64,000 nucleotides of DNA, taken from NCBI GenBank assembly GCA_016191115.1, contig JACPPG010000015.1, positions 1-64,000 of the forward strand, written 5' to 3'. The position numbers were made by a program, and so were the translations under genes. Source of the stretch: Planctomycetia bacterium. Its GTDB lineage: Bacteria > Planctomycetota > Planctomycetia > Pirellulales > JACPPG01. Shown here in pieces: positions 1-55,382 of this stretch. The notes below the pieces were generated by a model. That model was not told where the DNA came from. It did no database searches and was given only the letters and a program-made list of their open reading frames with translations. The number at the start of each line of letters is the position of its first letter. Position 1 is the stretch's first letter.

Positions 1-154
1 GGGCCGTTCACAGATTCAAGCTGGATGGCGGCGCACCGGCGGGAAAGTGGGACAGGCACCGAGACGCAACGTTAGTCTGAAAGGACTTGCGCTGTTTATG
101 CTCGGAGCCAGTCCCATTTTCCCGCCTCGCCATTTTGAAAAACAGAATGACCCC
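1..154 (+). repeat. Element A copy 1 (MITE-like, cut by window edge)
   Basis: The first two bases of the terminal repeat lie outside the window. The body carries the internal inverted repeat seen in all copies: GGCGGGAAAGTGGGACAGGC pairs with the segment ending TTTTCCCGCC. The right end is degenerate (GAATGACCCC rather than GAATGGCCCTG). Element B follows after about 10 bp. There is no coding capacity; the short ORFs across it recur only because the repeat recurs. Confidence 0.85.
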
Positions 155-9875: not shown

Positions 9876-10017
9876 CAGGGTCATTCACAGATTCAAGCTT
9901 GCCGGCGGCGCACCGGCGGGAAAGTGGGACAGGCACCGAGACGCAACGTTGGTCTGAAAGGACTTGCGCTGTTTATGCTCGGAGCCAGTCCCATTTTCCC
10001 GCCTCGCCATTTTGAAA
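9876..10017 (+). repeat. Element A copy 2, truncated at its right end
   Basis: Starts CAGGGTCATTC and has the complete internal inverted repeat, but stops after CATTTTGAAA, so the right terminal repeat is lost. It lies in the divergent gap between the BBP7 and cytochrome/DUF1549 genes. Confidence 0.85.
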
Positions 10018-10199
10018 TCCGTGACTTCGCGCGGCCGTTCTGGTACAACCGATTGCCACGGGGCAACGTCCGGCGGGACATCGACTTGGGTCCTGTCGGA
10101 CAGTTGCCGTTGTGCCGCCTGAAAAATGGCCGCGTGGCTAGTGCCGCTGGCACGCACCGCGCGGTGACCCCGCCTCGTTACAGCAAGCCGCCCATTCCC

Positions 10200-16951: not shown

Positions 16952-17106
16952 CAGGGCCGTTCACAGATTCAAGCTGGACGGCGGCACCGGCGGGAAAGTG
17001 GGACAGGCACCGAGACGCAACGTTGGCATGAAAGGGCTTGCGCTGTTTATGCTCGGAGCCAGTCCCATTTTCCCGCCTCGCCATTTTGAAAAACGGAATG
17101 GCCCTG
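16952..17106 (+). repeat. Element A copy 3 (left half of A+B composite)
   Basis: Complete: CAGGGCCGTTC at the left end and GGAATGGCCCTG at the right end. Ten bases separate it from element B. The exact 10-mer GTTCTTCTCA precedes it (16942-16951) and recurs after element B. Confidence 0.9.
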
Positions 17107-17116
17107 CGGTGCACAG

Positions 17117-17240
17117 CAGGAGAACTGCAAAGTCCGGGGTCTGGCTCATTTTTCGGCACACGCGCTCTTCAATCCTTCCGACGGACCTTCGGCCGAAAAA
17201 TGTGCCTGACCCCCTCTCCCTGGACTTTGCAGTTCTCCTG
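17117..17240. repeat. Element B copy 2 (right half of A+B composite)
   Basis: Terminal repeats CAGGAGAACTGCAAAGTCC and GGACTTTGCAGTTCTCCTG are perfect complements (19 bp). Inner arms include CATTTTTCGGC and GCCGAAAAATG. GTTCTTCTCA follows at 17241-17250 and matches the 10-mer in front of element A, so A and B are bracketed as a single 289-bp insertion. Confidence 0.9.
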
Positions 17241-24162: not shown

Positions 24163-24313
24163 CAGGGCCATCCTGTTTTTCAAAATGGCGAGGCGGGAAA
24201 ATGGGACTGGCTCCGAGCATAAACAGCGCAAGTCCTTTCAGACGAACGTTGCGTCTCGGTGCCTGTCCCACTTTCCCGCCGGTGCGCCGCCGGCAAGCTT
24301 GAATCTGTGAACG
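24163..24313 (-). repeat. Element A copy 4 (inverted)
   Basis: In + coordinates it begins CAGGGCCATCCTG and ends AAGCTTGAATCTGTGAACG, with the outermost bases of that end degraded. The GTG in its last segment is the most plausible start codon of the receptor kinase gene. Confidence 0.85.
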
Positions 24314-30005: not shown

Positions 30006-30094
30006 CTACAACTGCCTACTGCCTTCTGCCGCCTGCTGTTCCAAAGCACGCAATTATAGAAGTTGCCGGCAAGGGGTCTACCTGGAGTCGAACC

Positions 30095-30250
30095 CAGGGC
30101 CGTTCACAGATTCAAGCTTGCCGGCGGCGCACCGGCGGAAAGTGGGACAGGCACCGAGACGAAACGTTGGTCTGAAAGGGCTTGCGCTGTTTATGCTCGG
30201 AGCCAGTCCCATTTTCCCGCCTCGCCATTTTGAAAAACAGAATGGCCCTG
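30095..30250 (+). repeat. Element A copy 5 with exact 9-bp target duplication
   Basis: Intact ends CAGGGCCGTTC and GAATGGCCCTG. AGTCGAACC lies directly on both sides (30086-30094 and 30251-30259). Joining the flanks without the element restores a palindrome resembling a tRNA T-arm. Confidence 0.92.
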
Positions 30251-30359
30251 AGTCGAACCAGGCGAACTTGTCCGCCGCACGGGGCCTGGATATCGTGTGA
30301 TTTGCGGCTTCCGTGCCATCTTCCGCGCGTCCATCGAACTGCTCAGCCACGGCGATCCC

Positions 30360-37928: not shown

Positions 37929-38050
37929 CACGGAGAACTGCAAAGTCCGGGGTCTGGCTCATTTTTCGGCACGTGCCGTTCTCAATTCTTCCGAAGCCAC
38001 CTTCGGCCGAAAAATGTGCCTGACCGCCTGACCCCCTCGCCAAGGACTCG
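37929..38050. repeat. Element B copy 3, degraded right end
   Basis: Begins CACGGAGAACTGCAAAGTCC and keeps CATTTTTCGGC and GCCGAAAAATG, but the terminal repeat at its right end is lost after GACCCCCTCGCC. No target duplication. It fills the gap between mqnA and the next minus-strand operon. Confidence 0.75.
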
Positions 38051-55105: not shown

Positions 55106-55164
55106 GCGCACGACTCTACGCTACCGTGCTTGCGCGGTTGGGGCAATCTGCGTGATTGCGCCGG

Positions 55165-55321
55165 CAGGGCCGTTCACAGATTCAAGCTTGCCGGCGGCGC
55201 ACCGGCGGGAAAGTGGGACAGGCACCGAGACGCAACGTTCGTCTGAAAGGACTTGCGCTGTTTACGCTCGGAGCCAGTCCCATTTTCCCGCCTCGCCATT
55301 TTGAAAAACAGAATGGCCCTG
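55165..55321 (+). repeat. Element A copy 6 with 10-bp target duplication
   Basis: Intact ends CAGGGCCGTTC and GAATGGCCCTG. Flanks ATTGCGCCGG (55155-55164) and ATTGCACCGG (55322-55331) differ at one position, consistent with an older insertion than copy 5. Confidence 0.9.
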
Positions 55322-55382
55322 ATTGCACCGGCCCATGATTCGCCTTGACCGGAATCGCTCGCTTGCCTATTGTCCGCCCACC

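Follow-up and report, generated by a model that had tools for sequence, protein, structure and literature searches.

A high-copy MITE family of 157 bp with ISAs1-like ends and a core hairpin in a planctomycete genome

Element A and its copies in the window

The 64,000-nt stretch analysed here (the window) comes from contig JACPPG010000015.1 of the Planctomycetia bacterium assembly GCA_016191115.1. At 30095-30250 of its forward strand lies a short repeat, element A, which raises the question of what kind of unit it is and which enzyme would move it. The consensus of A is 157 bp long, gene-less and too short for a transposase gene; the copy at 30095 is 156 bp long, one G short of the consensus. 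The element is bounded by CAGGGC ends. Its left terminal inverted repeat (30095-30115, forward strand, CAGGGCCGTTCACAGATTCAA) is identical to the right one (30230-30250, reverse strand, CAGGGCCATTCTGTTTTTCAA) at 15 of 21 positions, including the first 7 bp. The right end is a variant of CAGGGCNRWTCAGTTTTTCAA, a MITE end found across genomes.

Inside these ends, an inverted repeat pairs at 23 of 26 positions (GGCGGGAAAGTGGGACAGGCACCGAG / CTCGGAGCCAGTCCCATTTTCCCGCC, as read from the sequence). This value, given in a preliminary description of the locus, is exact for the 157-bp form, but in the 30095 copy one G of the repeat is gone, which brings the ungapped score to 20/26. The core hairpin of this copy spans 30134-30221, with arms GGGACAGGCACC (30144-30155) and GGAGCCAGTCCC (30199-30210); hairpins of this type are also present on their own in further genomes of the order. 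The folding z-scores of A are -8.9 as RNA and -5.8 as DNA.

Six copies of A are found in the window. The preliminary description had credited all six with common ends; they do share the element, but both ends are present in only three of them (16952, 30095 and 55165). The 30095 copy is flanked by exact 9-bp repeats, AGTCGAACC at both 30086-30094 and 30251-30259, and the full 157-bp copy at 55165-55321 (forward strand) by 10-bp repeats with one mismatch, ATTGCGCCGG at 55155-55164 and ATTGCACCGG at 55322-55331, in both cases as originally reported. The third full copy (16952-17106, forward strand) has no matching duplication and is probably a misjoin, a recombinant or a copy with a decayed flank. 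Nor are the others intact: the copy at 9876-10018 (forward strand) is missing its right end and the one at 24163-24313 (reverse strand) its left end, with a polarity that fits assembly artefacts, and a copy at 1-153 (forward strand, element positions 3-155) is truncated where the contig begins.

When the element is removed from the 30095 site and the flanks are rejoined (30078-30275), the minus strand reads CCTGGTTCGACTCCAGG, which resembles a tRNA T-arm. A tRNA gene as the target was rejected, as ARAGORN and Rfam find nothing there.

Target duplications and empty sites

Target duplications with at most one mismatch flank 62 of 83 full copies, compared to 0.75 expected from shuffled flanks, one base of slack being permitted at each border. 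An exact 10-bp duplication is present in 43 of them and one with a single mismatch in 19 more. The duplications first described are thus real, although their usual length is 10 bp and not 9.

Empty sites are available in the same genome, where some copies of A lie within a second repeat of about 105 bp. At the occupied site L081:2057, A stands between GGGGCGAGGGTATTGAGG and GGTATTGAGGAGAAG. Of the ~105-bp repeats that lack A, eight were read, and most of them are GGGGCGAGGGTATTGAGGAGAAG, with a single 10-mer. These unoccupied copies provide the target in single copy, and insertion is thereby demonstrated: A inserts as a 157-bp unit with duplication of a 10-bp target. Reading frames across the rejoined flanks are no longer than those across random pairs, giving no sign of insertion into genes.

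Copy number and distribution

The host genome assembly comprises 6.03 Mb in 93 contigs and is 94% complete. A profile built from full copies was used for a census over 2.09 Mb of it, where 170 copies were counted. This density of one per 12.3 kb corresponds to about 490 copies genome-wide, or ~1.3% of the DNA, far from the few fixed copies that would have spoken against a mobile element. A genome-wide BLAST search pointed to more than 500 candidate places, the best 40 of which were scored and are 97-100% identical.

The median divergence of full copies from the consensus is 1.9% (range 0-14%), and subfamilies are marked by seven diagnostic internal positions. The transposition had been called recent. 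This holds only moderately, given the median divergence and the absence of any identical pair among the 83 full copies. The pattern suggests a burst from a few sources that is now decaying and has probably ended or slowed down.

No copy of A was detected in four other species of the genus. Among the other sampled genomes of the order and phylum no full-length copy was detected, the only matches being fragments of ~23-90 bp, and viral, phage and plasmid collections gave no match. The element has therefore been amplified to about 490 copies in one lineage and is absent from the four sampled congeners. Taken together, these results support in substance the original reading of A as a mobile gene-less element: the two tests that could have refuted it, on empty sites and on copy number, were both favourable, while four of its details needed correction.

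Element A constitutes a new, well-supported MITE family, and the hairpin that it carries appears to be captured. Bacterial MITEs in general, including the Tn3-derived TIMEs (PMC4133298), are likewise short and gene-less, with terminal inverted repeats, target duplication and high copy number. The ISAs1-like end type and the captured hairpin set A apart from them. No earlier ISAs1 MITE and no similar planctomycete MITE family was encountered in the literature searched, which left most subscription papers out of reach. Nor did this literature contain an account of A as a bacterial MITE of very high copy number.

ISAs1-type ends and the candidate transposase

The first six bases of A and its 10-bp duplication point to the ISAs1 family, whose elements generate target duplications of 8-10 bp. 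In relatives of the host, full ISAs1 elements measure ~1.25-1.3 kb, with CAGGGC or CACGGC ends, and copies with 10-bp duplications are present at L051, L052, L058, L059 and L069. CAGGGC ends and 10-bp duplications, measured in the host genome and in relatives, thus link A to this family (NF033564, PF13808); A differs in being gene-less, in an end likeness restricted to about the first 10 bp and in showing no shared interior.

It had been stated that no transposase is present. This is true of the window, but the genome does contain a multi-copy ISAs1-family element, located at contig ends. Six left ends (CAGGGCGATTGCGCCACAATAGG; contigs C55, C60, C88, C93, C2 and C19) and four right ends (CAGGGCGATTGCACCAAAAGTCAG; contigs C5, C73, C77 and C82) were identified, mostly as edge stubs of ~140 bp. 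Three left/right pairs carry exact 10-bp duplications (ACCGCTCCAG, CTGGCGCCCG and GGGTCGAGGT), and these numbers imply at least seven resident copies. Because it is present mostly as contig-edge stubs, the element was nearly missed by ordinary profile searches, which returned only ISAs1 fragments from the host genome; an N-terminal fragment of it matches PF13808 and, weakly, NF033564. Elements like A cause breaks and misjoins when short reads are assembled, and autonomous elements end up concealed at the edges of contigs; a draft genome is therefore no basis for stating that a transposase is absent.

The resident ends agree with those of A at only 8-10 of the first 15 bases, and the likeness does not extend beyond roughly the first 10 bp, which makes the resident element a candidate and not a proven partner. 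No autonomous element carrying the 21-bp ends of A turned up in 2.09 Mb of the host genome. None with A-type ends occurs among 80 loci from public genomes, all of which are short elements or unpaired ends, and the matches listed for the pattern CAGGGCCGTTCACAGATTCAAG in public genomes include no autonomous-partner locus. A 1.3-kb element at L273 was dismissed as the partner, as it holds an IS110-family gene. The yhhI region of E. coli served as a reference for the ends of ISAs1 elements, and only a single CAGGGC end was recognised there.

Judged by its ends and duplications, A is likely mobilised in trans by an ISAs1-type enzyme. A DDE transposase of this family, supplied in trans, would bind both ends of A, excise the element and join it to target cuts staggered by 10 bp. 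This enzyme could be encoded by the resident element or by a related one with the longer CAGGGCCRATCAGTTTTTCAA at its ends. As a whole, the explanation of A as a trans-mobilised MITE, moved by an ISAs1-family transposase and carrying a captured hairpin, is considered probable.

A wider end type in planctomycetes

Among 397 genomes sampled from the order, 57 contain the right end of A when up to three mismatches are allowed, although single hits may be due to chance. The highest counts are 71 (genome G015), 23 (G182) and 13 (G139), and no genome has more than one match to the reversed control. When public genomes were scanned for CAGGGCNRWTCAGTTTTTCAA, 80 loci came up, mostly from Pirellulales and other planctomycetes; the few matches outside the planctomycetes are all unpaired. 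This distribution would place the host in or close to Pirellulales. Many of the loci are short elements (67-176 bp) flanked by exact 10-bp duplications, such as L284, L288, L290, L295, L305, L309, L329 and L330. Since the 21-bp right end is common to such elements, A belongs to a broader assemblage of MITEs, within which it is specific to one lineage. An end type that spans the planctomycetes and goes with 10-bp duplications is also absent from the literature searched.

A distinct arrangement was seen in G015 at L038:1490-1640, where the end CAGGGCCAATCAGTTTTTCAAAATGG surrounds a long perfect inner palindrome with arms TACAAGCCCGCAGCGCCAGCAAGGGAA. The apparent flanking repeats of this element are 16 bp long (TCCTGGACACTCTAGC).

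The core hairpin

The core was searched with the pattern GGGACWGGCWCC(15-45)GGWGCCWGTCCC, in which two W positions were left free. It occurs 406 times in the host genome, compared to zero for the reversed control, and stands alone in 22 other sampled genomes, with 1-76 copies each; the four same-genus genomes contain none. In 53 of the 61 sequences listed, the base at each of the two W positions faces an identical base (T.T, read as A.A from the other strand). As these positions were free in the pattern, two symmetric mismatches are conserved. The six bases inward of the arms covary, with 220 of 342 pairs compared to 145 after shuffling (maximum 174 in 2000), a count inflated by related sequences within a genome being counted separately. 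The outer flanks of the core pair as well (50 compared to 36, maximum 51 in 2000).

On these grounds, the core is a structured hairpin that would be under selection or of one mobile origin. Element A then appears to be a composite, in which ISAs1-type ends came to flank a pre-existing planctomycete hairpin; the captured hairpin would subsequently have been amplified together with the flanking ends. It is the most unusual part of A. With its two conserved mismatches, it offers a specific and testable structural signature that is common to the 22 other genomes. Somewhat more tentatively, the core may be an independent, structure-selected planctomycete hairpin family with its own mobility or function, defined by arms GGGACNGGCNCC, two symmetric mismatches and covarying stem extensions. 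Element A would then be the end-pair that captured it and reached about 490 copies, some of which later became landing sites for IS110.

Alternative explanations and assembly effects

Mobilisation by another family that shares the CAGGGC ends and the 10-bp duplications and is absent from the assembly is unlikely. Such an enzyme would be consistent with the lack of an autonomous partner having A's 21-bp ends, and with G015, where 71 A-type ends occur and no ISAs1 transposase was matched. The ISAs1 elements of the host and its relatives, however, begin with the same six bases as A and duplicate the same length of target, and a search of the host assembly for the DDE_Tnp_1 transposase (PF01609) gave no match, in an assembly that drops the middles of multi-copy elements; this negative result also counts against the ISAs1 reading. 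A REPIN-like nature of A, in which a RAYT (REP-associated Y1 transposase) would move the palindrome and the end repeats would be incidental, is very improbable. The core is indeed a pair of inverted, imperfectly pairing motifs, resembling REP/REPIN palindromes in this respect, and many Y1 transposases are encoded in core-bearing genomes. Nevertheless, the 10-bp duplications lie at the outer ends of A, contradicting insertion without target duplication, and mark A as a DDE-type unit. Furthermore, the core motif is present in none of 33 Y1 loci (101 kb, all three of the host genome included), so that neither a RAYT association of A nor a RAYT origin of the core was retained. That A is a static repeat or regulatory module, inherited vertically and maintained by selection, is hardly credible. 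This view would agree with the lack of ORF preference among the insertions and with the strong folding of the RNA, but the empty sites within another repeat refute it, and the target duplications and the absence of A from same-genus species also oppose it.

The ISAs1-mobilised MITE thus remains the preferred reading, and the incomplete copies have to be explained beside it. About 56 interior copies, roughly one third, lack 4-27 bp of one end. One-ended or aborted transposition, which would produce such losses, is improbable. In its favour, the losses concentrate in the outer ~20 bp of both ends, and no convincing duplication mates were seen among these copies. However, the missing end is on the right of the contig in 52 of 56 cases (p = 1e-11), for which no biological reason exists, and the truncated lengths match the ~140-bp stubs of A at contig edges. 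Given that contig orientation is arbitrary, the bias led to the one-ended copies being treated as artefacts, and a new mode of transposition was dropped. They are best read as products of the assembly, those at 9876 and 24163 of the window included. Many contigs begin or stop within A and keep ~137-141 bp of it, the length that a de Bruijn assembler run at a k of about 141 would be expected to leave. Several of the full copies that lack a duplication are affected too: the missing 10-mer is located at a contig edge, for example for L120:970 with L155:1, C3:4045 with L081:1 and L119:6928 with L190, which identifies those copies as misjoins or recombinants.

Secondary insertions and other repeats

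An IS110-family element (PF02371) interrupts the core of A at CACCGAG^ACG, and does so at the same position in at least two copies. Insertions of this kind were located at L086:1-285, L110:1-110, L128:6566-6791 and L160:1-135; those at L086 and L128 are likely the halves of one interrupted copy of A, their flanks agreeing at 9 of 10 bases. A third located insertion lies outside A, at CCACCGAG, and in G331 an IS110-family gene is found between two A-type ends. The insertion in the core parallels IS110-type elements such as ISPpu9, which target REP palindromes (PMC8450116).

The ~105-bp repeat (AAGGATCGACCGAAAAATAACTTC...GAAGTTATTTTTCGGTCGATCCTTA) has long inverted ends and 23 copies in 2.09 Mb, and is apparently another MITE; examples are L081:1982-2254, L106:17717-17816 and L137:3962-4065. 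Element A lies within at least two of its copies, several times at the same site. A further repeat of ~95 bp (GGTCAGGCACATTTTTCGGCCGAAGG...GACTTTGCAGTTCTCCTG) is present in 49 copies in 2.09 Mb, including 193-287, 17117-17211 and 37932-38025 of the window. At L155:12836, part of this repeat replaces the left end of A and the matching target repeat is kept. Finally, a multi-copy element with ends GTAACTCTTTAGCCGTGTG, which we take to be IS66-like from these ends, occurs at more than 20 places in 2.09 Mb, such as L086:17645, L120:5016 and many contig ends, and is also inserted in A at AAAAACAG.
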